A stretch of 64,000 nt of DNA from the NCBI RefSeq assembly GCF_002741055.1, contig NZ_CP016809.1, positions 5,372,501-5,436,500 on the forward strand. Reading direction: 5' to 3'. Source of the DNA: Paenibacillus ihbetae. GTDB taxonomy: Bacteria; Bacillota; Bacilli; Paenibacillales; Paenibacillaceae. Shown piece after piece: positions 1,565-14,243 of this stretch (positions within the stretch are counted from its first letter, which is position 1; every line of letters begins with the position of its first letter). The position numbers and the translations under genes are program-made. A model generated the notes under the pieces. The model searched no databases. It was not told the origin of the DNA and saw only the letters and a program-made list of their open reading frames with translations.

Positions 1565-1581
1565 AATTGGATCACCCAATT
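1565..1581. promoter_or_regulatory. GntR-type operator O1
   Basis: AATTGG-ATCAC-CCAATT, a 17-bp palindrome with 6-bp arms. It is one of three near-identical copies flanking the GntR gene (also 1692-1706 and 2470-2486). This copy lies about 120 bases upstream of the predicted transcription start, which suits DNA looping or an auxiliary site. Assignment to the adjacent regulator is an inference from position and symmetry. Confidence 0.65.
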
Positions 1582-1628
1582 ACTCTTCGATTACGTCGGA
1601 TACTCAGGAAAATCGAGTTTATTTTAGA

Positions 1629-1642
1629 TGTAAGCGCTATAA
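1629..1642 (+). promoter_or_regulatory. cre site (CcpA), candidate
   Basis: TGTAAGCGCTATAA matches the catabolite-responsive element consensus TGNAANCGNTNNCA at every fixed position except one (A instead of C near the 3' end). It ends 6 bases upstream of the -35 box at 1649. This implies carbon catabolite control of the GntR operon, as expected for a carbohydrate catabolic locus. Confidence 0.55.
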
Positions 1643-1648
1643 TTTTGC

Positions 1649-1678
1649 TTGACAGCCCAAATGTGATCCGTTTATGCT
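1649..1678 (+). promoter_or_regulatory. Sigma-A promoter of gntR
   Basis: TTGACA (1649-1654), 18-base spacer, TATGCT (1673-1678). The predicted start is near 1685, just before operator O2 at 1692-1706, so a bound repressor would sit on the initially transcribed region. Confidence 0.7.
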
Positions 1679-1691
1679 AGATCTGCGGTCC

Positions 1692-1706
1692 ATTGGATGA
1701 CCCAAT
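1692..1706. promoter_or_regulatory. GntR-type operator O2
   Basis: ATTGG-ATGAC-CCAAT, the same 5-5-5 geometry as O1 and O3. It lies directly downstream of the predicted transcription start and 36 bases before the GntR start codon. Confidence 0.7.
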
Positions 1707-1741
1707 TACCGATTTTGATGAAGGATAGAGAGGGAAATCAT

Positions 1742-2440
1742 ATGACCATTAAGAAGATTAAATATCATCGGGTATATGAGGACGTCATTGAACAGATCAA
1801 AAATTTGATTTTAGAAGGAAATCTAAGCCCCGGTGATGTTCTGCCGACCGAGCGCGAGCTGGCGCAATCGTTCGGAATCAGCCGCGGAACGCTGCGGGAA
1901 GCCTTCCGCATTCTCGAGAGGGAAGGGCTGATCGAAGCAAGGCCCGGAGGGGGGCGTTTTCTCAGCAAGGCGCTCGATGTTGCGGAGGACCGAAGCCGGA
2001 TCCTCGACAATATCGAACGCGCGACGATCATTGAGCTGCTGGAAGCCCGGGAGCTGTTCGAGACGGGGATTGTGGAGCTGGCGGCCAAGCGGGCCACGGA
2101 AGAGGACATCGCTGAAATCGAGGCGGCCTTCGAGAAGTGGGGCCAGGTCGGGTTAGACGATGAAGACCGTTCCAAGCCGGATCAGGCCTTCCATTTATCG
2201 ATCGCGAAGGCGACGCATAACGTCGTGCTCGTCAATATGATCGAGCTGCATATGGACCTGCTTCAGCGCACCTTGAACAAGACCCAGGCGATCCCCGGCC
2301 GCAAAAGCGAGGTCTATGAGGAGCATCTGCTTATTTTACAGGCGATTAAGGAACGCGATCCGGTGAAGGCAAAGCTCGCCTTGTTGAACCATCTGAGCCG
2401 GGTGAAGGAGAACATAAAAAACAATTACATTCATGCATAG
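1742..2440 (+). CDS. GntR transcriptional regulator, FadR subfamily
   Basis: A 232-residue regulator. A winged helix covers about residues 8-75, with PTERELAQSFGISRGTLREA and the wing ARPGGGRF. An FCD effector domain follows (about 95-220). The FCD keeps the acidic/histidine set used by metal-dependent members: DQAFHLSIA, EEHLLILQAI and LLNHLSRV. FCD regulators usually bind small organic acids or sugar acids. ATG 1742 is preferred over ATG 1697 because 1697 lies inside operator O2 and lacks a ribosome binding site. The three operator copies indicate autoregulation together with control of the downstream catabolic genes. It is most likely a repressor released by the pathway substrate. Confidence 0.9.
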   Translation: MTIKKIKYHRVYEDVIEQIKNLILEGNLSPGDVLPTERELAQSFGISRGTLREAFRILEREGLIEARPGGGRFLSKALDVAEDRSRILDNIERATIIELLEARELFETGIVELAAKRATEEDIAEIEAAFEKWGQVGLDDEDRSKPDQAFHLSIAKATHNVVLVNMIELHMDLLQRTLNKTQAIPGRKSEVYEEHLLILQAIKERDPVKAKLALLNHLSRVKENIKNNYIHA

Positions 2441-2441
2441 C

Positions 2442-2463
2442 AGGGGAGTGGCTTCCCCTTTTT
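2442..2463 (+). terminator. Short terminator after gntR
   Basis: AGGGGA (2442-2447) pairs with TCCCCT (2454-2459), followed by TTTTT. The 6-bp stem is weak, so it is probably a partial terminator that lowers read-through from gntR into the structural genes. Confidence 0.5.
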
Positions 2464-2469
2464 AACACA

Positions 2470-2486
2470 AATTGGATAATCCAATT
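2470..2486. promoter_or_regulatory. GntR-type operator O3
   Basis: AATTGG-ATAAT-CCAATT, followed at once by a further half-site-like TATCCAAT. It lies between gntR and the AtuA-like gene, 45 bases before its start codon. It is well placed to control the structural operon separately from gntR. I do not see a convincing -35/-10 pair for that second promoter. Confidence 0.7.
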
Positions 2487-2530
2487 ATCCAATGGGCATG
2501 AGTGAATAATTTGGTAAAGAGGGATTGCAG

Positions 2531-3910
2531 ATGAATACAGACATTCGAATTTTATCCCCCTGCGGGATGCTGGGATACGGGTTTCCGGAGCAATCCTTCA
2601 TGAACGGATTGAAGCACGAGCTGCACGGCATCGTGGTCGATGCGGGTTCGACCGACGGTGGACCGCATAAGCTGGGCGCCGGCGTATCCATCGTCAGCAA
2701 GCGCGCGGTAAAGAAAGACCTGAAGATCATGCTCTCTGCCGGCCTTCCCCGGAACATTCCGATCATCATCGGCTCAGCCGGCGGTTCCGGCGCCAGAACG
2801 CATGTCAATTGGACGCTTGCGATCATTGATGAAATATTGGCCGAACTCGGGATGGAGGCGAAAGTATCGGTAATCTGGGCGGACTTCACCCAGGACGAAA
2901 TCCATCAGGCGAAGAAGGAAGGACGCATTCACACGCTTAGCCCGAACATCCCGCCATTGACGGATGAGATGATCGATACGACCAAGAGCATCGTGGCCCA
3001 AATGGGACATGAGCCCATTGTGGAAGCGCTTCAGGCCGGAAGCGAGATCATTGTCTGCGGTCGCGCCTATGATCCGTCCCCTTTCGCAGCGATCGGCATA
3101 TTCCATGGCAAGGATCCCGGACTCTCGTACCATCTCGGCAAAATTCTCGAATGCGGCGCGCTGTGTGCGGAGCCCGGCACGACGAAGGACAGCATCCTCG
3201 GCACCATCGGGGACGACAGCTTTACCGTACAGTCCCTGAATCCGGCACGTACCTGCAGCCCGACCAGCGTCGCGGCCCATACGTTCTATGAGAAGGAGCA
3301 TCCGTACATCCTGCACGGGCCCGGATTTACGCTGGATCTGGAAAACTGCCGGTTCGAAGAGATTGAGCCGGGCATCGTCCGCGTCAGCGGAAGCCGGTAC
3401 CTGCCTGCGGAGAAATACTTCGTCAAATTGGAAGGAGCAAGGCGCGTGGCTTACCGAACTTTCGTGATTGCGGGGATCCGCGACCCGATCCTGATCGGGA
3501 AGCTGGAGGAGGTCGAGGAGTACGTCCGAAGCCAGGCGAGAGAGTATTACGGTGAGATTCCCGAAACCGATTACCAAATCCGGTTTTACAACTACGGGAA
3601 GAACGGCGTACTCGGCAGCAAAGAGACGGAGCCCTTCCAGGGGCACGAGGTGGGGGTGATGTTCGAAGTGGTTGCGAGGACGCAGGAGCTGGCTAGCAGC
3701 ATATGCGCCACCGTCCGATCGACCTTCCTGCATTACGGCTATGAGGGCCGGAAGGCAACGGCGGGCAATTTGGCTTTTCCATTCGCCCCAAGCGATATCG
3801 AGTTCGGTCCTGTTTACGAATTCTCCGTGTATCACCTGATGGAAATGACCCGAAGTGCGTTTCGCATCGAATTTCGAAAGGGAGGTTATCAGCATGGCCT
3901 TGCTCGGTGA
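2531..3910 (+). CDS. AtuA-like protein (DUF1446 family)
   Basis: A 459-residue soluble protein of the DUF1446 family, named after AtuA of the acyclic terpene utilisation cluster. The biochemical role of the family is not established as far as I know. Recognisable segments are the glycine-rich GSAGGSGARTH near residue 80, VCGRAYDPSPFAAIGIFHG, and the C-terminal NYGKNGVLGSKE and GRKATAGNLAFPF. The start is ATG 2531 behind AAAGAGGG; an in-frame TTG two codons earlier is too close to the ribosome binding site. It is the first structural gene of the operon and overlaps the DUF4387 gene by 17 bases. AtuA-like and DUF4387 proteins are often neighbours, so they probably act as one enzyme. The reaction is unknown; processing of the non-sugar part of the imported compound is only a guess. 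Confidence 0.8.
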   Translation: MNTDIRILSPCGMLGYGFPEQSFMNGLKHELHGIVVDAGSTDGGPHKLGAGVSIVSKRAVKKDLKIMLSAGLPRNIPIIIGSAGGSGARTHVNWTLAIIDEILAELGMEAKVSVIWADFTQDEIHQAKKEGRIHTLSPNIPPLTDEMIDTTKSIVAQMGHEPIVEALQAGSEIIVCGRAYDPSPFAAIGIFHGKDPGLSYHLGKILECGALCAEPGTTKDSILGTIGDDSFTVQSLNPARTCSPTSVAAHTFYEKEHPYILHGPGFTLDLENCRFEEIEPGIVRVSGSRYLPAEKYFVKLEGARRVAYRTFVIAGIRDPILIGKLEEVEEYVRSQAREYYGEIPETDYQIRFYNYGKNGVLGSKETEPFQGHEVGVMFEVVARTQELASSICATVRSTFLHYGYEGRKATAGNLAFPFAPSDIEFGPVYEFSVYHLMEMTRSAFRIEFRKGGYQHGLAR

Positions 3911-4220
3911 CGTGGCGAAGGTGCTGCGGAGCAAAAACTCCGGCCCCTTCGAGATTACTTTGGACGTCCTGTTTGATTCCAAAGACGATTATGACAGAGT
4001 AAAACAATCCGGCTGCATTACCAAACGAACCATCTGCGATCTGTACCGGATCAAGGAAGAACAGGTTCATCACCTGGTGTTTTTTGACCAGGCGCTCGGC
4101 TTCAAAGTGACCATCTCGCGGGATATTTCGTCGGGCAGCGTCGGCGACCGCGACGTGTACGGAGCACAGCAGCATGCTCCGCTGATGAAGCTGGCCATCC
4201 ATCAATCAGAGGAGGGGTAG
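3894..4220 (+). CDS. DUF4387 family protein, partner of AtuA-like protein
   Basis: A 108-residue soluble protein beginning MALLGDVAKVLRSKNSG and ending in the DVYGAQQHAPL region typical of DUF4387. The start ATG 3894 has a GGAGG at 3881-3885 and lies inside the end of the preceding gene, indicating translational coupling and probably equal amounts of the two proteins. No catalytic motif can be named. I infer that it is the small subunit of a two-part enzyme with the AtuA-like protein. The transporter genes follow after 3 bases. Confidence 0.75.
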   Translation: MALLGDVAKVLRSKNSGPFEITLDVLFDSKDDYDRVKQSGCITKRTICDLYRIKEEQVHHLVFFDQALGFKVTISRDISSGSVGDRDVYGAQQHAPLMKLAIHQSEEG

Positions 4221-4223
4221 ACG

Positions 4224-5117
4224 ATGAAGGTGCTCAGACGCTTGAGGCAGGATTGGGTATTGTACGCCATGCTGGCCTTACCTCTGCTCTACTTTTTCAT
4301 CTTTCACCTGATTCCGCTCTATGGCATGAAGCTCGCCTTCCAGGATTACCGCATTCTGGGCGACCATGTCTGGGTCGGCTGGAAGCATTTCAAGACCTTG
4401 TTCAGTTCGCCGGCATTCACCAGCGTACTGGAGAACACGATCATTATCAGCTTGATGAAAATCATCTTCGTATTCCCGATTCCGATCATGCTGTCCCTGC
4501 TCATTAATGAAGTGCGCAGCAGCAAATACCGCAAGTATGTGCAATCCGTCGTTTATCTGCCGCACTTTCTGTCCTGGGTCGTTATCGCGGGGATCTGGAT
4601 CAGCCTGCTGAATCCGGCGGACGGCGGGGTCAATCTGATTGCGAATTTCTTTCAATTGCCGTCGGTCGATTATATGACCAGCAAGGAGCATATCCGCTGG
4701 GTGCTTGTTTTCTCCGAAATTTGGCGGAGTGCTGGCTGGGATTCCATCATTTATCTGGCCGCGATCATGAAGATCAGCCCGGGATTATACGAGGCCGCGA
4801 AAATCGACGGTGCCACCCGGCTGCAGCAGATGCGGTACATCACGCTTCCTCATTTGTACAGCACAATTGTAACCGTCTTCATTCTGAATCTAGGATTTTT
4901 CATGAATGCGGGCTTCGACCAAGTGTTTAACTTTATGAACGATTCCATCATCAGCGTGGTGGACATTCTGGACACCTATGTATACCGGATCGGTATCGGA
5001 AACGGGCAGTTTGCGTATGCAACCGCGGCTAGTCTATTTAAAGGCGTCATCGGGATTGTCCTCATCCTGGGCACGCATTTCATTTCGAAACGCATCTCGG
5101 GCAAGGGCGTCTGGTAA
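4224..5117 (+). CDS. ABC importer permease, LplB type
   Basis: A 297-residue permease with six predicted membrane segments. The cytoplasmic EAA loop, which docks the ATPase, is seen at about residues 190-210 (EAAKIDGATRLQQMRYITLP). It belongs to the CUT1-type group represented by B. subtilis LplB/YteP, which imports oligosaccharides or larger glycosides. No ATPase gene is present in the operon, which is normal for this group because a shared MsmX-type ATPase usually serves several importers. Its partner permease and lipoprotein follow directly. Confidence 0.88.
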   Translation: MKVLRRLRQDWVLYAMLALPLLYFFIFHLIPLYGMKLAFQDYRILGDHVWVGWKHFKTLFSSPAFTSVLENTIIISLMKIIFVFPIPIMLSLLINEVRSSKYRKYVQSVVYLPHFLSWVVIAGIWISLLNPADGGVNLIANFFQLPSVDYMTSKEHIRWVLVFSEIWRSAGWDSIIYLAAIMKISPGLYEAAKIDGATRLQQMRYITLPHLYSTIVTVFILNLGFFMNAGFDQVFNFMNDSIISVVDILDTYVYRIGIGNGQFAYATAASLFKGVIGIVLILGTHFISKRISGKGVW

Positions 5118-5129
5118 AGGGGGAGAACG

Positions 5130-6002
5130 ATGAGACGGCTGGAGTTATCGAAAATCGTCATTTATGTCTTGCTGTTCCTGTTCACGCTCATGGTGCTGAT
5201 TCCCATCCTGAACCTGCTGGCGCTATCCTTGACCGACCCGGGCAAAGCCCACCTGATGGGCGGTCTCGATATTGTGCCGAAAGGCTTCTCAACGATCAAT
5301 TATCAGCTGCTGTTTGCCAACCCGCTGATAACGGGGAGCATCATGAATTCGGTGTGGATAACCGCAGCTGGGACGTTTCTGAACCTGCTGCTGACGTCCA
5401 TGGCTGCATACGTGCTGGCGAGAACGGAGTTTATCGGCAAAAAAGCGGTGTTGTTTCTCTTGATTGTCGTTATGGTATTCGAGCCGGGCATGATCCCGGA
5501 GTATTTGCTGATTAAAGATCTCGGACTTATGAATACGCTTACCTCCTTGATTCTGTATAAGGCGATTAACGTGTATTACCTGTTTATCCTGATGCGGTTC
5601 ATTCAGGATATTCCGGAGGAGATTTTGGAAGCGTCCCGGATGGATGGCGCCGGACATTTCCGATTGTACACCCGGATCATTCTGCCGCTGTCGAAGCCGG
5701 GGCTGGCGACGCTGGGGCTGTTCTACGGCGTGTATCACTGGAATGAATATTTCCGTGCAACGCTGTACATCTCGGAGCCGGGCAAATGGCCGCTTCAGGT
5801 CGTTTTGCGCCAGTTCGTCGTCCGCAAGGACAACACGTCCTTGATGGGCAATCAGAATATGTTCGACAGCGCCATCAACTTCGACTTTGCTTCCTTGCAG
5901 GCAGGGACGATCATCATTGCGATCGTGCCGCTGCTGTTCCTATATCCTTTCATTTTGAAATATTACGCCAAGGGCGAGCTTGAAGGAGGGGTCAAGGATT
6001 AA
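5130..6002 (+). CDS. ABC importer permease, LplC/YtcP type
   Basis: A 290-residue permease with six predicted membrane segments and the EAA loop at about residues 164-186 (EILEASRMDGAGHF, then ILPLSKPG). It forms the heterodimeric channel with the preceding LplB-type protein. It starts 12 bases after that gene behind AAAGGGGGAG. The closing KYYAKGELEGGVKD tail is typical of this permease group. Confidence 0.88.
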   Translation: MRRLELSKIVIYVLLFLFTLMVLIPILNLLALSLTDPGKAHLMGGLDIVPKGFSTINYQLLFANPLITGSIMNSVWITAAGTFLNLLLTSMAAYVLARTEFIGKKAVLFLLIVVMVFEPGMIPEYLLIKDLGLMNTLTSLILYKAINVYYLFILMRFIQDIPEEILEASRMDGAGHFRLYTRIILPLSKPGLATLGLFYGVYHWNEYFRATLYISEPGKWPLQVVLRQFVVRKDNTSLMGNQNMFDSAINFDFASLQAGTIIIAIVPLLFLYPFILKYYAKGELEGGVKD

Positions 6003-6064
6003 GCCGGGAAGGCAAGATGTATCCGCCGCGTACGTTCCATTTTCTAAAAAGGGGAGAACAAACC

Positions 6065-7564
6065 ATGAAAAAGGTAAGCCTGTTGTTAATCGTAGCCATG
6101 CTGGTTATGGTCATGTCCGCATGCACATCGAACTCTAACTCAAGCGCTCCGGGCGCGGGGCAGGAGCCGGAAGCGGCAAAGCCCGACGGCAGCGGAGAGG
6201 CCGTGACGCTGAAGATCGTGTATAAGGATGAGGGAACGACCAATCCGGTCTCCGTAAAATTCTTCGAAACGCTGGAGAAAGCATTGGCGGAGGATGAGGG
6301 GCTGAACGTAAAGTTTGAGCTCGTCGATCTGGCGCAGGGCAGCTATGCCGAAAATTTGAATCTGCTGCTGCTCGGCGGCACGATTCCGGATATCATCTAT
6401 TTCCAGGGCGGCGACCAGCAAATCTCGGAGCAAGGCCTGCTGGAGGATCTGAGACCGTATATCGAAAAATCCAAGTACATCAAAGACATCATGGAGCCGC
6501 ATAACAAAACCCGCATGGAGAGCTATCCGTATCTGATGTGGATCAAGCCGCTCGCACCGAAAGCGCCGGTGATCCGCGCCGACTGGTTCAATGCGATGGA
6601 CAGCTCCAAAGCGTTGATCGAAAATCCGACCGTCGACAATTATTACGCCTTCTTTAAAGAGATGGTCGAGAAAAAGCCGGGCGAAGGCAAGCCTAGTTAT
6701 GCGCTGACCGCCGCAGGCGATATCGCCGAGATCAATTTCATTTTCAATACCGCTTTCGGCCTCGACACGACTTGGCTCAAGAAGGATGACGGAACGTATG
6801 AATATTCCAAGGTATCCCAGAACGAGAAGGAGAAGCTGACCTTCTATAACAAGCTTTACAAGGAAGGTTTGCTGGACCCGCAATTCATTACGAAGCAGTG
6901 GGACACGAAGGAAGATGCCTTCTATAAGGGCGATGCGGCCGTAATTACAGGCACCGTTGGCAAAATCCTGGATCTGTATGACGGAAGAATGCAGGATCTG
7001 GGCGGTAAGGAAGCCGAGCTGATCGTTCTGCCGCCTGCCAAGGGTGATGGAGGTCAAGGCTTCGGGGCCACCGACGTAACGAAGGAATCCCGCGGTCTCG
7101 CGATTTCTTCGCAGTCTCCTCACAAGGACATTGCGTTCCGGGTGTTTGATTACTTGGCAAGCCCGAAAGGACAAATGCTGGACCGCCTGGGCTTTGAGAA
7201 CGAGCATTTTACCGAGGAGAACGGGGAGATCGTGCTCAATGATAAATATTACAGCGAGTGGTATGCACGCTTCTGGGAGCCGGTCGAGATGAAATCGGCA
7301 ACGCCGCTGAAGACCCCGCTGCTGGGCAAGCCGGGAATGGAGTCGCTAAATATGGCTTCCGAATTTTACACCGAGGACAACAACTTCCTGATTCCGGAGC
7401 AATTCGTTGCCAACTGGGATGCGATGAACAATCTGTATAAGGAATATTCGACCGATTTCATTACCGGCAAGAAGGATCTGTCCCAGTTCGATGAATTTGT
7501 TGAAGCTTGGTATGCTGCCGGAGGCACGGAAGTAACGAAATATGCTAACGAGAACATCAAATAA
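6065..7564 (+). CDS. ABC importer solute-binding lipoprotein, LplA/YtcQ type
   Basis: A 499-residue extracellular lipoprotein. The signal peptide ends in the lipobox VMSAC, with Cys20 as the predicted lipidation site, followed by a flexible Ser/Asn/Gly/Pro linker. ATG 6065 is chosen over an upstream in-frame start because it has GGGGAG 10 bases upstream and begins a proper signal peptide. The length fits the large binding proteins of the LplA family. It should capture the substrate outside the cell and deliver it to the two permeases encoded just upstream. Confidence 0.9.
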   Translation: MKKVSLLLIVAMLVMVMSACTSNSNSSAPGAGQEPEAAKPDGSGEAVTLKIVYKDEGTTNPVSVKFFETLEKALAEDEGLNVKFELVDLAQGSYAENLNLLLLGGTIPDIIYFQGGDQQISEQGLLEDLRPYIEKSKYIKDIMEPHNKTRMESYPYLMWIKPLAPKAPVIRADWFNAMDSSKALIENPTVDNYYAFFKEMVEKKPGEGKPSYALTAAGDIAEINFIFNTAFGLDTTWLKKDDGTYEYSKVSQNEKEKLTFYNKLYKEGLLDPQFITKQWDTKEDAFYKGDAAVITGTVGKILDLYDGRMQDLGGKEAELIVLPPAKGDGGQGFGATDVTKESRGLAISSQSPHKDIAFRVFDYLASPKGQMLDRLGFENEHFTEENGEIVLNDKYYSEWYARFWEPVEMKSATPLKTPLLGKPGMESLNMASEFYTEDNNFLIPEQFVANWDAMNNLYKEYSTDFITGKKDLSQFDEFVEAWYAAGGTEVTKYANENIK

Positions 7565-7578
7565 GGAGCTTAGAGCGG

Positions 7579-8742
7579 ATGACATTCTTTCGTGACCGAG
7601 TAAGGGGCGTGGTCCTATCGACTGCGCTCGGGGATGCCCTGGGGGCTCCCGTCGAGAAGCTGACGTATGCGGAGATCAAATCGAAATATGGCCGGGTGGA
7701 ATCGCTAATGACCAAGTGGCATAAAGCGGACCTTCCCGCCGATGTCCGGCTCGGCAGAATGCGGGGCAACGGCATCGTAACGGACGATACGCTGATGACC
7801 ATCGCGCTGATGAAGGTGTATATGACCGAGGGCCGGCATTTGGACGCCTACGACATGGGCAAAGAATTCGTGAAGGAAATTGCATTTCGCAAGACCTACG
7901 TCCCGGAGCTGGATCAAGAGACGCTCATTATCGAGCGGCTGTTTTACCCGGAAAAATATATCTTCATGCGCCATGTGCTGGCAAACTGCGATCCACGGGA
8001 GGGCGGCATCGGCAATATGGTCAACTGCGGGGCGGCGATGTACATCGCCCCGATCGGAATCGTCAATGCTTGCCATCCGAAGGCAGCTTATGATGAAGCA
8101 ATTCTGTTCGCGATGGGTCATCAGAGCAGCTACGGACTGGAAGCAGCCGGCGTGCTTGCTGCCTGCGTTGCCAAAGCCTTCGAGCCGGGCGCGACGGTGG
8201 ATGATATCGTTCATACGGCAATCGCCCTCGCGAAGGACGGCACGAAAGCTGCAATTGCCGAATTGACGGAAGCGGCCCGAGAGCTGCGTCCGTTCCGGGA
8301 AGATATGGACCGGGTCGTTGAGACGTTCCAAGAGATCCTGCTGAAGTACTCGCCGATGGGCGATGACGTAAGCCGCCATATCGACAAGGTTGGCCTTCCA
8401 AGCAACCATTACACGCCGAGCCGCCTGTGGTCGATTGAGGAGCTGCCGCTTGCGCTTGCTTTTATGGTGCTGAATGACGGCGAATATTACCGGACGATAC
8501 TGGACGGCATCAATTCCGGCCGGGATACCGACTCCATCGGCGTCATGGCCGGCGTCATCCTCGGCGCAATGCACGGCTGTGAAGCAATACGGACCGAGGA
8601 TATCGAGCAGTTGAACAAGGTGAACCGATTGGATCTAATCGGTATCGCCGACCGCTTCTCCGAAGCCGCGGCCCGAATCATCGAGGAGGATCTTCGGATC
8701 CATGAAAGCAGAAAGCGGGTATGGTTGGAAGAGCTGCAATGA
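7579..8742 (+). CDS. ADP-ribosylglycohydrolase family protein (ARH1)
   Basis: A 387-residue soluble protein of the DraG/ARH family, enzymes that hydrolyse N- or O-glycosidic bonds to ribose using two Mg ions. The metal-binding motifs are intact: GDALGAPVE at about 18-26, TDDT at residues 68-71 and DTDS at 316-319. It should therefore be catalytically competent. It starts 14 bases after the binding-protein gene behind AAGGAG. Within an importer-ribokinase operon a metabolic role (releasing ribose from an imported N-riboside or ADP-ribose-like compound) is more likely than reversal of protein ADP-ribosylation. That is inference. Confidence 0.85.
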   Translation: MTFFRDRVRGVVLSTALGDALGAPVEKLTYAEIKSKYGRVESLMTKWHKADLPADVRLGRMRGNGIVTDDTLMTIALMKVYMTEGRHLDAYDMGKEFVKEIAFRKTYVPELDQETLIIERLFYPEKYIFMRHVLANCDPREGGIGNMVNCGAAMYIAPIGIVNACHPKAAYDEAILFAMGHQSSYGLEAAGVLAACVAKAFEPGATVDDIVHTAIALAKDGTKAAIAELTEAARELRPFREDMDRVVETFQEILLKYSPMGDDVSRHIDKVGLPSNHYTPSRLWSIEELPLALAFMVLNDGEYYRTILDGINSGRDTDSIGVMAGVILGAMHGCEAIRTEDIEQLNKVNRLDLIGIADRFSEAAARIIEEDLRIHESRKRVWLEELQ

Positions 8743-8775
8743 ACCGTTGAATTTGAACGGTTAGATTTAACCGTT
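8742..8775. repeat. Three-armed inverted/direct repeat
   Basis: AACCGTT (8742-8748), AACGGTT (8756-8762) and AACCGTT (8769-8775). The middle arm can pair with either flanking arm, giving two mutually exclusive 7-bp hairpins in the mRNA just after the ARH1 stop. No T tract follows. The remaining sequence up to 9013 shows nothing recognisable. Confidence 0.55.
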
Positions 8776-9013
8776 ATCAAGAAGCCTGATTTGAAGAATT
8801 GTCGGTCGCCGCAGCCGGGTTTCGTTATGCAAGAGAGCAGGAAATCCGGAGTGTGACTTGCCGGACCTGCCGGGGCACTAAAGGCTCATTTGAGGGAGAC
8901 ATCGGTTTTACACGCGGCTACCGAGCTTGCCGCTCCGAGCAAGGCAAGAGAGAAGGATCATGACTGGCCTTGGCACAATTCGTTCAACAGGCTGGGAGGG
9001 AGAGTGTACGTCT

Positions 9014-11125
9014 ATGATACCTGAAAATTATGTGGAGTCGGTTTATGCCGGATTTATCGGCATGAACATCGGCATACGGCTGGGAGCACCCATTGAGCCG
9101 GTGGCTTGGACCTACGAACGTATACGCGACGTATATGGGGATATCCGCGATTATGTGAAGCCGTATACCACGTTTGCGGCGGATGATGATGCGAACGGGC
9201 CGGTGTTTTTTATACGGGCGCTCTATGACGATGCAGCAGACCGGGAATTGGAGCCGGAGGATGTCGGCAGAGCTTGGCTCAATTATGCCCGCGAAGGCAT
9301 CGGCATGTTCTGGTGGGGCGGGGAGGATATCAGCACGGAGCATCGTGCCTACGTGAATCTCCGCAAAGGAATCCCCGCTCCGAAGTCCGGCTCGATCGAG
9401 GTGAACGGAGAGGAAATGGCGGAGCAGATCGGAGGACAGATCTTCATCGACTCCTGGGGGCTGCTGTTCCCCGGTCGGGCGGAGAAGGCCGCCGAATACG
9501 CGGAGAAGGCGGCGAGCGTATCCCATGACGGCAACGGGCTCTATGGCGCACGCTTCATGGCTGCGTGCATCGCCAAAGCTTTCGATGCGGCTTCCGTCGA
9601 TGAAATCATAAGCGAAGGACTGCGCATGATTCCGGCAGATTCTACGTATGCACGCGTCGTGCGTGCGGTCCAGGATTTCCATCGCGACCATCCCGAGGAT
9701 TTCCGGGCATGCCGGCAGTACCTGGAGGAACACTGGGGATATGATAAATATACCGGGGTGTGCCATATTATCCCGAATGCCGGCGTCTGCGTGCTTGCCC
9801 TGCTGTACGGTGATGGGGATTTCGCGCGTACGGTCGAGATCGCGTCGATGTGCGGCTGGGATACGGACTGCAATGCAGGCAATGTCGGCAGCATTCTCGG
9901 TGTATACAGCGGTTTGGCCGGCATTCCGGACCACTATCGCAAGCCGATCAATGATTTTATCGTAGCCTCGAGCGTGTCCGGCTATTTGAATTTGGTCGAC
10001 TTTCCGACCTTCGCCAGAGAGCTTGCGCTGCTCGGCTATCGGCTGAACGGAGAAACAGCCCCGCAGGACTTAGTGGAGCGCGTGAAGCCGGGCGAGGTCA
10101 GCTTCGACTTCGATCTGCCGGGTTCAACCCACGGCTTCCGCACCAGCAATCCGTTCAAGACGCCTGTCGTCAGACACTCGGTTCAACAAACCTATGGCGG
10201 CAGGGGGGCGCTGGAAATCGTGTTCGACCGATTGGTTGAAGGCGACAGCAGCAAAATTTATTACAAGCCGTTCTACCGCAGAGCCGAGTTCAATGACGAG
10301 AAATACAAGCCGACCTTTGCTCCGCTGGCCTATAGCGGTCAAACCGTTTCTGCGAAAATCTATGCGGATCAATGGGAGGGCGAGCCAATCAGGCTGACAC
10401 CCTACGTACGCAACACTTATAATAGAGAAGAAGTATTGCTCAGCCCGGCTACGCCGGAGAATGGAAAGTGGAACGATATCGAATGGGTAATTCCCGACAC
10501 CGATGGGGCCATGATCGACGAGATCGGCTGGATATTGGAGAGCCCTTCCCCGCTCGCGAACCGGGCCATCGGCCGGCTGTTTATCGGACAGTTCCGCATT
10601 ACGGGCGAGGCGAAATACACGATCGATTTTGCCAAGCAGGCCAAGGAATTCGGCTCCGTCACCCCGTTCTCCCATCATCGGGGCGTTTGGGAGCTTCGCG
10701 ATGGCACGCTGTGGGGAAAGGCGGAAGGGGATGCCTCATCCTACTCCGGCAATTACTATGCGGATGACACGGAGGTCGAAGCGGTTATCACGCCGGTCTC
10801 GGGAGACAGCCACTGCCTTATCGTAAGAGCGCAGGGCGTGATGCGGCACTATTTGGCCGGCTTCGACGGCCCGAACGCCGTATCGTTTATCAAACAGGAA
10901 TTCGGGGCGAAACGGCTCATCACCGCCAGATATGATTGGGAGCACGGGCAGGCGTATCATTTCAAGCTGAAAGCGCAGAAGGATCATTTCACGCTGTTCA
11001 TCAATGGCGAGAACGTTCTGGAATGCAAGGATAGTGCGTTTGGGCACGGGATGTTCGGGTTCGGCTGCCTGGAGGATGGGGAGCTTCACATTCGAGAGGT
11101 TCAGGTACGAACGTCCGTATCGTGA
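9014..11125 (+). CDS. ADP-ribosylglycohydrolase domain fused to C-terminal beta-sandwich-like region (ARH2)
   Basis: A 703-residue protein without a signal peptide. Residues 1 to about 345 form a second ARH domain. It has LGAPIEPVAW near 23-32 and a divergent metal motif, ADDDA at 56-60 instead of TDDT. The C-terminal metal motif DTDCN at 283-287 is conserved. Residues from about 370 to the end are not ARH; the last 150 (GVWELRDGTLWGKAEGD, then FTLFINGENVLECKD, then GMFGFGCLEDGELHIREV) resemble a concanavalin-like jelly roll such as LamG or DUF1080. ATG 9014 is chosen because GGGAGGGAGAG ends 8 bases upstream; ATG 8960 is a weaker alternative. The fusion suggests recognition of a glycosylated substrate, presumably in the cytoplasm. 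Confidence 0.8.
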   Translation: MIPENYVESVYAGFIGMNIGIRLGAPIEPVAWTYERIRDVYGDIRDYVKPYTTFAADDDANGPVFFIRALYDDAADRELEPEDVGRAWLNYAREGIGMFWWGGEDISTEHRAYVNLRKGIPAPKSGSIEVNGEEMAEQIGGQIFIDSWGLLFPGRAEKAAEYAEKAASVSHDGNGLYGARFMAACIAKAFDAASVDEIISEGLRMIPADSTYARVVRAVQDFHRDHPEDFRACRQYLEEHWGYDKYTGVCHIIPNAGVCVLALLYGDGDFARTVEIASMCGWDTDCNAGNVGSILGVYSGLAGIPDHYRKPINDFIVASSVSGYLNLVDFPTFARELALLGYRLNGETAPQDLVERVKPGEVSFDFDLPGSTHGFRTSNPFKTPVVRHSVQQTYGGRGALEIVFDRLVEGDSSKIYYKPFYRRAEFNDEKYKPTFAPLAYSGQTVSAKIYADQWEGEPIRLTPYVRNTYNREEVLLSPATPENGKWNDIEWVIPDTDGAMIDEIGWILESPSPLANRAIGRLFIGQFRITGEAKYTIDFAKQAKEFGSVTPFSHHRGVWELRDGTLWGKAEGDASSYSGNYYADDTEVEAVITPVSGDSHCLIVRAQGVMRHYLAGFDGPNAVSFIKQEFGAKRLITARYDWEHGQAYHFKLKAQKDHFTLFINGENVLECKDSAFGHGMFGFGCLEDGELHIREVQVRTSVS

Positions 11126-11160
11126 GCTAGAGCGAGAATAATGGAAGGGAGGAGATCGAT

Positions 11161-12090
11161 GTGGGGAAACTTTACGTCATTGGCAGCATCAACATGGATG
11201 TGGTCAGCAGCGTATCGAAGTTTCCGCAGCCGGGGGAGACGATTCACAGCAGCGGGACGTCCTTCTTCCCCGGAGGGAAAGGGGCGAATCAGGCCGTGGC
11301 CGCCGCGATGGCCGGCGCGGAGTGTGCGATGATCGGAGCGGTCGGCCACGATCCGTTTGGCGATACGCTCGTTTCTTCCCTGGAGGACCGGGGAGTGGAG
11401 GTGAAGTCCGTATTAGCCAAGGAAGGCACCTCGGGCATGGCGATTATTACGGTTAATGAAGAAGGCGAGAATCATATCGTGTTGTCAGCTGGAGCCAACG
11501 GACAGTTAACGGAGGCTGACGTCCAAGCGGAGGTCCATTGGGAGGATATTTGTGCGGTCCTGCTGCAAAATGAAATCCCATGGGAGACAAACGAGGCCGT
11601 CATTCAGTCTGCGAATGCAGCGGGGGTTCGCGTCTGGCTGAACCCGGCTCCTGCCCGGGCTTTGCCTCCGTCGCTGTTTCCGCTGCTGGATACATTGATT
11701 CTGAATGAGACGGAGGCGGCGGCCGTCAGCGGCGTGAAGGTGGAAGACCCGATGACGGCCGAGCTTGCCGCAGGGAAACTGCTAAGCCTGGGAACGGAGA
11801 ACGTGATCGTTACACTGGGAGAGCAGGGATGCTTCTACGCAAACCGCCGAGGAGAGCGGATTGCCGTGCCGGCTTACTCCGTGAAGCCCGTGGATACGAC
11901 AGCGGCAGGCGATACCTTTATCGGGGCATATGCGGCCGCAAGCTCAGGGGGCATGGCAACCGAAGCAGCGCTTCGATTCGCTGCCGCCGCCGCAGCTTTA
12001 GCGGTCACCCGCCCGGGTGCGCAGGCTTCCATTCCGTCCAAGCAGGATATTGAGTGGTTCTTGGAGAAGCAGCCGACATCGACACATTGA
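11161..12090 (+). CDS. rbsK: Ribokinase-like PfkB carbohydrate kinase
   Basis: A 309-residue PfkB-family kinase with ribokinase hallmarks: GSINMD (8-13), GGKGANQA (38-45), the NPAPA segment, NETE, and DTTAAGDTF with catalytic base Asp251, plus TRPGAQ near the C-terminus. Ribokinase converts D-ribose to ribose 5-phosphate with ATP in the cytoplasm. It starts at GTG 11161 behind GGGAGGAG. As the last gene of the operon it fits a pathway in which the upstream glycohydrolases release ribose. The ribose 5-phosphate can be used by RpiA, encoded at 60895. Another furanose cannot be excluded. Confidence 0.85.
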   Translation: MGKLYVIGSINMDVVSSVSKFPQPGETIHSSGTSFFPGGKGANQAVAAAMAGAECAMIGAVGHDPFGDTLVSSLEDRGVEVKSVLAKEGTSGMAIITVNEEGENHIVLSAGANGQLTEADVQAEVHWEDICAVLLQNEIPWETNEAVIQSANAAGVRVWLNPAPARALPPSLFPLLDTLILNETEAAAVSGVKVEDPMTAELAAGKLLSLGTENVIVTLGEQGCFYANRRGERIAVPAYSVKPVDTTAAGDTFIGAYAAASSGGMATEAALRFAAAAAALAVTRPGAQASIPSKQDIEWFLEKQPTSTH

Positions 12091-12136
12091 TGGAGAACAG
12101 CTCTTCTGTTCGGGGGAGCCGTCCAAACCCAATAAG

Positions 12137-12175
12137 CCATAGAGGGCGTTTGTAAGGTCCCCCTATGGTTTTTTT
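12137..12175 (+). terminator. Intrinsic terminator of the ARH-ribokinase operon
   Basis: CCATAGAGGG (12137-12146) pairs with CCCCCTATGG (12159-12168) with one mismatch, followed by seven T residues. Confidence 0.85.
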
Positions 12176-12743: not shown

Positions 12744-12906
12744 TGGCGGGAGAATGCTTGTTCGGACGAGCCTACGCAGCTTCTCCCTGGTGCACTCGAG
12801 GTACCGAAATGGCAGCTAACAACCTGCATGGAGCGCTCCCTCGGCTATAATCAGACGTATTTTCAAAACTTGGATGTTTACTACAAGCGTGCAGGAGGTG
12901 AATGGA

Positions 12907-13455
12907 TTGTTAGAGGAACGGTTAAAGAGCTGGATCTGTGAACATCAGCCTTTGATGGCGGATTTGCAGCGGGTGCGGGAGCTAGACCTGCCGCAATGCT
13001 ATATTGCTGCAGGCTATATCCGCAACTATGTGTGGGATATCCTTCATGGATATGACCGTTCCGATCGGCACAGCGATATCGATGTGGTGTTTTTTGATCC
13101 GGATGATGCTTCCCGGGAGCGGGACGAGCTTCTGGAACGGAAACTAAGGGAATCGACGCAGAATCCCAAGTGGTCGGTCAAGAATCAGGCCCGGATGCAT
13201 ATCAAAAACGGGGATGCGCCTTACCGGTCGACCCATGATGCGTTGTCGATGTGGCCCGAAACCGCTACGGCCATCGGGGCGAGGCTAAATCCGGCTGGAG
13301 GAATCGAGCTGGTCTGCCCGTACGGGCTTGAGGATCTGTTCGCTATTCGCGTGAGGCGCAGCCCCGCATTCTTAAAGCGTGAGTATTACCTGGAACGGGT
13401 ACAAAGAAAGCAGTGGGCGGGCCAGTGGCCGCTGCTGACGATTATTGAGGATTAG
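12907..13455 (+). CDS. Nucleotidyltransferase family protein (NTP_transf_6 type)
   Basis: A 182-residue soluble protein with the nucleotidyltransferase signature HSDIDVVFF (Asp57 and Asp59 as metal ligands), preceded by the AAGYIRNYVWDILHG segment typical of the DUF925/NTP_transf_6 group. The family has a polymerase-beta-like fold but mostly unknown substrates. TTG 12907 is chosen because AGGAGGTG at 12892-12899 is spaced for it; the longer frame from ATG 12874 would place that ribosome binding site inside the gene. The neighbours downstream are a methyltransferase and a NUDIX protein on the same strand. Confidence 0.75.
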   Translation: MLEERLKSWICEHQPLMADLQRVRELDLPQCYIAAGYIRNYVWDILHGYDRSDRHSDIDVVFFDPDDASRERDELLERKLRESTQNPKWSVKNQARMHIKNGDAPYRSTHDALSMWPETATAIGARLNPAGGIELVCPYGLEDLFAIRVRRSPAFLKREYYLERVQRKQWAGQWPLLTIIED

Positions 13456-13535
13456 CCGCATGGAGTTTATCCTCATCCGGTGGCATATGCGGATATCGCC
13501 ATGCTGCTGCAAAACAGAGAAGGGGAGAGAGCGAC

Positions 13536-14243
13536 ATGGGAGATTTTCAGCAAGCACGCGAGAAGGAAAGAGCTTATCACGAACAGTTTTACGATCAAAC
13601 CGTATTGTTCGAGCCCGGGAGCTGGCTGGCGCGGCCAGTGGCTGCGGTCATGGAACATCTGGAGCTGCTGAGGGTCCAGAACATGCGGATCCTGGATTTA
13701 GGCTGCGGCGTCGGCCGGAACAGCATTCCGATGGCTCAGCGGATCCGCGACATGAACGGGACGGTCGTCTGTGTGGACCTGCTGGAGTCGGCAATCGCGA
13801 AGCTGCGGCAGTATGCCGAGCAGCATGGCGTTGCGTCCCATATCGAGACGCATGTGGCGGATGCCCAGTATTTTCGAGTCACGCCGGGCATGTATCATTA
13901 TATTGTGGCTTGCTCCTGCCTTGAGCACCTCAGCTCGGAGGAAGCGTTCGTTGCCAAGCTCGAAGAGATGCAGGAAGGCACGGCTCCCCTTGGTATCCAC
14001 TGCATCATGATCAACACGAATGTGAAGGAGATCGATGTGGAGACGGGCAAGGAGCGGGACGGCTTGATCGAGCTGAATCTTCCAACGGAACGCGCCTTCT
14101 CGATCCTGCATCGTTTGTATGCCGATTGGGAGATCCTGTGTGAGCGGCAGGTCCATCAGGAAATTCCCGAGGTCCACGACGGCAGGGATATGATGTTTTG
14201 CGGCGAATGGATTACCTTCACTGCACGAAAAGGAGCGCGGTAA
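13536..14243 (+). CDS. Class I SAM-dependent methyltransferase
   Basis: A 235-residue protein with the SAM-binding motif I LDLGCGVGRN at about 53-62, an acidic residue ending the second strand (VVCVDLLESA) and motif IV-like IVACSCLEHL. This is the Rossmann-type methyltransferase fold. The substrate cannot be read from the sequence. It starts at ATG 13536 behind AAGGGGAGAG. The NUDIX gene follows after 2 bases, so they are co-transcribed. Confidence 0.8.
   Translation: MGDFQQAREKERAYHEQFYDQTVLFEPGSWLARPVAAVMEHLELLRVQNMRILDLGCGVGRNSIPMAQRIRDMNGTVVCVDLLESAIAKLRQYAEQHGVASHIETHVADAQYFRVTPGMYHYIVACSCLEHLSSEEAFVAKLEEMQEGTAPLGIHCIMINTNVKEIDVETGKERDGLIELNLPTERAFSILHRLYADWEILCERQVHQEIPEVHDGRDMMFCGEWITFTARKGAR

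Follow-up and report, generated by a model that had tools for sequence, protein, structure and literature searches.

Closest described systems

Among described gene sets, the E. coli yegTUV operon comes nearest to the operon considered here, which consists of nine genes on the + strand (positions 1742-12090) of a 64,000-nucleotide stretch (the window) of the 6.59 Mb Paenibacillus ihbetae genome. Both combine a GntR regulator, a transporter, an ADP-ribosylglycohydrolase-fold (ARH) protein (YegU in E. coli) and a sugar kinase (putative in the case of YegV). The yegTUV operon is reported to be the single target of the GntR regulator YegW/GgaR, and the function of its three genes is described as unclear (PMC10819704). 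The E. coli set differs in having a transporter of the major facilitator superfamily type, where ours encodes an ATP-binding cassette (ABC) importer, a single ARH and no CmlAB.

Other parts of the operon have described relatives elsewhere. Both subunits of citramalate lyase, CmlA and CmlB (PDB entries 9erq and 9evf), can be aligned with proteins of the operon, but here they are joined to an importer, ARHs and a ribokinase. CmlAB is also found in methylaspartate operons, whereas the present operon lacks glutamate mutase and methylaspartate ammonia-lyase. For the latter pathway, Kronen and Berg (2015) mention an unidentified DUF1446 gene beside the ammonia-lyase gene and an unclear fate of citramalate (PMC4682846). 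The described hydrolases DraG, ARH3 and ARH1 share the fold and metal-site residues of the operon ARHs, which, however, stand in a sugar-catabolism context with no transferase partner in the operon, and one of which, ARH2, adds two carbohydrate-binding-like domains. Ribokinase, together with an RbsR-like regulator in some relatives of the locus, recalls the rbs ribose operon, although the importer type differs and the ARHs and C-C lyase are found here. Finally, the CBM66 of B. subtilis levanase sits on a secreted fructanase, while in our case a CBM66-like domain sits on a predicted cytosolic ARH.

Considering the operon as a whole, we put at roughly 45% the probability that it is a catabolic operon for an imported ribosylated hydroxy-acid, from which ribose would be cut off and trapped, and of which the acid would be split by CmlAB. 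The literature searched, a scope without most subscription journals, yielded no description of such a pathway and no use of the term DUF4387; the original prediction, made without database searches, likewise named no described pathway with this gene set. While the parts are known families, the combination, the putative ribosidase role of the ARHs and the proposed substrate appear to be new.

Conservation of the gene set

The genes, their families, their conserved linkage, the operators, the folds and the metal-site conservation were all computed. For linkage, we considered the best 80 of 142 related loci from one scan with CmlA. CmlB was present in all 80, the LplB- and LplC-type permeases in 78 each, the solute-binding protein (SBP) in 73, ARH1 in 67 and ARH2 in 76. 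As three loci have less than 7 kb downstream, the remaining 77 (at least 7 kb) serve as the better reference, and among these CmlB is found in 77 and ARH2 in 76, with CmlA and ARH2 sharing the strand in 76 of 76. A gene set not kept together in other genomes, named in the original prediction as evidence against it, was therefore not what we found. The hosts include Paenibacillaceae, Bacillaceae and relatives, several clostridial families, and metagenome-assembled genomes of Halanaerobiales and Anaerolineaceae. These data support the view that the operon is one catabolic unit, conserved over many families.

Of 394 Paenibacillaceae genomes, 35, including the source genome, have a CmlA of at least 61% identity, and 36 have an ARH2 of at least 54%. 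Both occur in 35, and only one of the 359 genomes without CmlA has ARH2 (Fisher 2.5e-49, uncorrected for kinship). One genome (G220) was left out of this count, its sole CmlA match being 33% identical and accompanied by no ARH2 match. A further 27 Paenibacillaceae genomes hold only ARH2 relatives of 40-45% identity, without a cluster-type CmlA.

The AtuA/DUF4387 pair

In the original prediction, the AtuA and DUF4387 proteins were a pair that handles the aglycone. We replace this description, as both match citramalate lyase subunits (for E values, see Table 1). The matches run nearly full length to both chains of 9erq and 9evf, which the PDB lists as subunits A and B of citramalate lyase, and the AtuA-type large and DUF4387-type small subunits are encoded by adjacent genes, as is characteristic of CmlAB. 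It should be noted that the name citramalate lyase is taken from the PDB molecule names of these two entries together with operon context. Relatives at 46-49% identity are part of methylaspartate operons in two cases, one on a Salmonella plasmid and one on a Prevotella replicon, or adjoin fumarase genes on Neorhizobium and Klebsiella plasmids, and those at 35-44% identity, on other plasmids, have mixed contexts. In a sample of the phylum, 92 of 398 genomes have a CmlA match. We viewed 17 loci, drawn from 68 full-length matches with identities of 42-53%. In 13 of them the fetched stretch includes methylaspartate ammonia-lyase, one has fumarase genes only and three have neither. The match to 9erq and 9evf, taken with the operon context of the relatives, thus places the pair in a C-C lyase family, so that the presumed aglycone step can be given a name, that of a C-C lyase.

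The CmlA of the operon nonetheless belongs to a separate clade (23 rows, support 100/100, stem 0.52) that lies beside the methylaspartate-linked clade and not inside it. While 102 CmlA positions are conserved in both the cluster and the methylaspartate/fumarase-linked groups, 18 near-fixed positions, including K47 and K219, differ between them, one of the 18 being a gap. A more distant CmlAB lineage (37-38% identity) is joined to ARHs and an importer in two loci (L142 and L161), while a third member, L160, has no ARH match. In L161, the pair adjoins two ARHs, the importer and a protein with an FGE-sulfatase domain.

Two other roles were considered and rejected. For the methylaspartate pathway, the genome gave no ammonia-lyase match above the cut-off, and a single sub-cut-off match to that family is its sole trace. 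Use of terpenes, as the name AtuA might imply, does not agree with citramalate lyase being the nearest solved enzyme, nor is there an acyl-CoA enzyme among the nine genes.

ARH proteins and importer

Both ARH proteins match PF03747 above its cut-off and have the ARH fold, with DraG, MJ1187 and ARH3 as their nearest enzyme folds. The paired acidic motifs of the two-metal site are intact in the ARH domains, and in ARH2 residues D57-D59, D283 and D285 are invariant in an alignment of 41 rows. Residues of this kind have a metal-site role in the family, and PDB titles name the mutants E41A, D77A and D314A. Of the earlier claim that ARH1 and ARH2 release ribose, the ARH domains with their intact metal-site pattern stand, while the ribosidase activity is predicted. 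By analogy with their relatives, the two proteins would probably act on alpha-ribofuranosyl bonds.

The AlphaFold model of ARH2 (pLDDT, the predicted local distance difference test score, of 92.0) comprises an ARH domain (residues 2-348), a beta-sandwich carbohydrate-binding-like domain (358-532), which structural alignment supports less well than the other two, and a CBM66-like domain (536-703). The modeled third domain has the CBM66 fold, a family for which binding of terminal fructofuranose is characteristic; mouse galactocerebrosidase ties with the B. subtilis levanase CBM66 by Z (18.4, root-mean-square deviation 2.5, 182 aligned). A third ARH gene lies outside the operon, about 0.9 Mb away (G000:C1:6295616-6296389). 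No match for CmlA, CmlB, ARH1 or ARH2 was obtained in a PADLOC search for phage-defence systems, and this role was rejected.

Among solved structures, AlgQ1 and further binding proteins of family 1 are closest to the binding protein (E 4e-9). LplABC-type import, as originally predicted, is supported.

Ribokinase lineages

The kinase of the operon passes the NCBIfam ribokinase equivalog model TIGR02152 (329.1 against a cut-off of 299.65), confirming the predicted ribokinase. PfkB kinases were found in 65 of the 80 loci, and the 70 kinases found form seven groups at 50% identity, at differing positions in the cluster. For all 13 kinases scored, TIGR02152 was the best model, and eight passed its cut-off; the others were L060 (297.2), L115 (279.4) and L084, L100 and L107 (215-222). 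The recruitment of ribokinase-type kinases of several lineages points to released ribose. In L095 (8000-9961), a LacI regulator is fused to ribokinase directly upstream of CmlA, and L100 and L101 have long kinase ORFs (open reading frames) in the same place, the LacI fusion being judged there from length and kinase match.

Regulatory sites

The regulator is of the GntR/FCD type, and upstream of both its gene and the operon lies a shared palindrome that is unique in the genome. The three matching operators of the original prediction hold up: allowing for at most three mismatches, three were found where 0.36 were expected, a number reached in none of 100 shuffles. The exact core ATTGGATNANCCAAT occurs at three sites in the whole genome, all in the operon, while the reversed control pattern gave none. 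Among 27 loci with an orthologous GntR, TTGGATNNNCCAA is present in the regulatory gaps of 17 (one strand scanned), and 27 of its 29 matches in the 1.62 Mb of the 80 loci fall in those gaps, with none for a permuted control. The FCD-type GntR presumably acts as a repressor through these three dedicated operators.

The predicted cre site, ATGTAAGCGCTATAA, is cre-like, with one mismatch to the cre consensus, and suggests that the operon may be under carbon control. A cre-like match is present upstream in seven of the 27 loci. The predicted closing terminator is plain by eye but was not reported by the terminator scan, probably because its loop is longer than the 8-base limit of the scan. FCD-type GntR regulators are generally of the carboxylate type; the use of both carboxylate-type and ribose-type regulators by relatives would fit a two-part substrate.

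Operon layout and variant loci

The features are summarized in Table 1. Pfam matches are GntR with FCD, AtuA, DUF4387, two BPD_transp_1, SBP_bac_1, two ADP_ribosyl_GH and PfkB. As predicted, the nine same-strand genes are separated by small gaps or overlap, except for a 271-bp spacer 5' of ARH2 (8743-9013), which has repeated AACCGTT/AACGGTT arms immediately 3' of the ARH1 stop. In the relative L034, the two ARH ORFs are only 47 bp apart. The possibility that the spacer is a genomic repeat was rejected, as a genome search gave no further copy, and an RNA-family search gave a single match, to an animal microRNA family far under the gathering score and at chance level, with none in the spacer above chance. 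The operon is flanked on the 5' side (22-957) by Amj, of the 'Alternate to MurJ' family (PF10997), and on the 3' side (12874-14243) by a nucleotidyltransferase (PF06042) and then a methyltransferase.

Table 1 Features of the operon and its regulatory sites, by position in the window.
Feature	Position	Strand	Basis
Operator O1, AATTGGATCACCCAATT	1565..1581	.	Genome-wide pattern search and shuffle test
Cre-like site, ATGTAAGCGCTATAA	1628..1642	+	Consensus match
Promoter-like TTGACA-18-TATGCT, between O1 and O2	1649..1678	+	Consensus match only; scan gave 2 sites vs 1.1 expected by chance
Operator O2, immediately 3' of promoter-like site	1691..1707	.	Genome-wide pattern search and shuffle test
GntR-family regulator with FCD domain	1742..2440	+	Pfam; top NCBIfam model LldR, under its cut-off
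Operator O3, in the gap separating regulator and cmlA; arms AATTGGAT/ATCCAATT form a perfect palindrome	2470..2486	.	
CmlA-like large subunit, citramalate-lyase family (AtuA, PF07287)	2531..3910	+	PDB 9erq_A, E 6.2e-137; Pfam; tree
CmlB-like small subunit (DUF4387, PF14330), overlapping cmlA 3' end	3894..4220	+	PDB 9erq_B, E 3.1e-31; Pfam
LplB-type ABC permease	4224..5117	+	Pfam
LplC-type ABC permease	5130..6002	+	Pfam
Lipoprotein solute-binding protein	6065..7564	+	Pfam; structural relatives; lipobox-like MSAC read by eye
ARH1, single-domain ADP-ribosylglycohydrolase-fold enzyme	7579..8742	+	
ARH2, three-domain protein	9014..11125	+	AlphaFold model; structure comparison; invariant residues
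Ribokinase (PfkB family)	11161..12090	+	TIGR02152, 329.1 bits, above cut-off
Intrinsic terminator with a long stem, a loop of 13 nt and a run of T	12137..12175	+	Read from sequence

The composition of the cluster varies among lineages. Eight of the ten loci without ARH1, of clostridial and Chloroflexota hosts, carry another ARH (family F1) instead. Certain Bacillaceae loci have this family as well, and an esterase-like hydrolase is added in some of the clostridial and Chloroflexota variants. Bacillaceae loci are without the cluster GntR; in most, a different kinase follows CmlB, and a LacI protein is present in many (for the one scanned, the best match was RbsR, under the model cut-off). In seven of them (L046, L048-L050, L052, L055 and L057), an SBP and one or two extra ARH-type genes (ARH-like or F1) lie upstream of CmlA, so that a cluster can hold as many as four ARHs.

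Proposed pathway and alternative explanations

We infer every reaction of the pathway, as well as the order of steps, the repression and the substrate. The lipoprotein and both permeases, working with an ATPase encoded elsewhere in the genome, would import a ribosylated compound, which ARH1 and ARH2 would cleave as cytosolic ribosidases, the two carbohydrate-binding-like domains of ARH2 possibly holding furanosyl or oligomeric substrates. Ribokinase would turn the released ribose into ribose 5-phosphate. CmlAB would then split the released acid, which would be a 2-hydroxy-2-substituted succinate (citramalate, for example, or something closely similar), into a 2-oxo acid and acetate; citramalate would yield pyruvate and acetate.

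Several observations weigh against this pathway, of which the aglycone step is the weakest part. We know of no natural ribosyl-citramalate, and none was seen in the literature listing searched. As the CmlA of the operon stands in a separate clade and has distinctive near-fixed residues, citramalate itself cannot be taken for granted as the substrate, which may differ from it. Five importer-plus-ARH loci lack CmlAB, namely L122 in a Paenibacillaceae genome (G365), with an AraC regulator, importer, ARH1, ARH2 and kinase and no CmlA match, and L114, L115, L116 and L117 on rhizobial-order plasmids, with importer and ARH1 in all four, ARH2 in three and ribokinase in just one. Since CmlAB can be absent from such loci, support is stronger for the ribose part than for the aglycone part. 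The ribose part has its own exceptions: 15 of the 80 loci show no PfkB kinase, 10 of 77 are without ARH1, the kinases of L084, L100 and L107 are far under the ribokinase cut-off, and L083 lacks any ARH while retaining CmlAB, kinase and importer, an aldehyde dehydrogenase and an aminotransferase coming next instead. In addition, as one CBM66 member can bind a non-fructose ligand (PMC11002231), the CBM66-like domain does not settle the sugar.

These variants bear on a different explanation, which we consider unlikely although it is the most credible of the alternatives, namely that two partly independent modules share one regulator. Importer, ARHs and ribokinase would then salvage ordinary or modified ribosides, and the acid split by CmlAB would come from elsewhere, co-imported or as a side product, rather than being the aglycone released by the ARHs. 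The importer-plus-ARH loci without CmlAB speak for such modules, as do ten other Paenibacillaceae loci with ARH2 relatives of 40-45% identity, five of which have a ribokinase-like gene nearby and five none; one (L123:4741-8796) has two ribokinase-like genes, LacI and an inosine-uridine nucleoside hydrolase. Likewise, eight genomes of the phylum sample have ARH2 at E <=1e-60, and only four also have a CmlA match. Nonetheless, orthologous ARH2 and CmlA are almost never separate among Paenibacillaceae, L078, where the importer is absent, retains just five enzymes (CmlAB, kinase, ARH1 and ARH2), and ARHs accompany the second lineage of CmlAB, too.

Somewhat less likely still, the substrate could be an oligo- or polysaccharide fragment that contains ribofuranose residues and bears an acid substituent. 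On it, ARH1 and ARH2, the latter with its binding domains, would act as exo-ribofuranosidases, while CmlAB or an esterase removes the acid. The LplABC-type importer, the AlgQ proteins among the SBP relatives, the CBM66-like and other beta-sandwich domains of ARH2, and the esterase-like hydrolases and extra ARHs of some clostridial and Chloroflexota variants would all suit such a fragment, but no secreted glycanase was recognized in the conserved core (flanking genes being only partly annotated), and by eye the ARH2 N-terminus has no evident signal peptide. We find it very improbable that the ARHs are DraG-like regulators that strip ADP-ribose from proteins rather than catabolic enzymes. Although DraG, MJ1187 and ARH3 are the closest enzyme folds and the metal-site pattern is intact, no ADP-ribosyltransferase is encoded among the nine genes, and the carbohydrate-binding-like domains of ARH2, the multiple ARHs per cluster and the recurrent ribokinase partners fit catabolism better. 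A search for DraT (PF07357) gave no match in the source genome, but control genomes gave none either.

Implications

Taken more broadly, we tentatively suggest, with somewhat less than an even chance of being right, that ARH proteins, known as erasers of ADP-ribose, include a class of catabolic ribosidases that work in the cytosol, some of them bearing carbohydrate-binding modules, and that together with a distinct CmlAB subfamily would consume an unrecognized natural ribosylated hydroxy-acid in soil, plants and gut, as judged by the hosts. If true, bacterial ARH paralogues that are poorly understood, E. coli YegU among them, would gain a metabolic role, and the citramalate-lyase family would take part in a second pathway. 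This would also mean that an uncharacterized ribosylated metabolite is common enough for many Bacillota families and a Chloroflexota member to keep genes for it, with the importer and ARH part kept on rhizobial-order plasmids as well. The binding protein offers a direct route to finding this metabolite.

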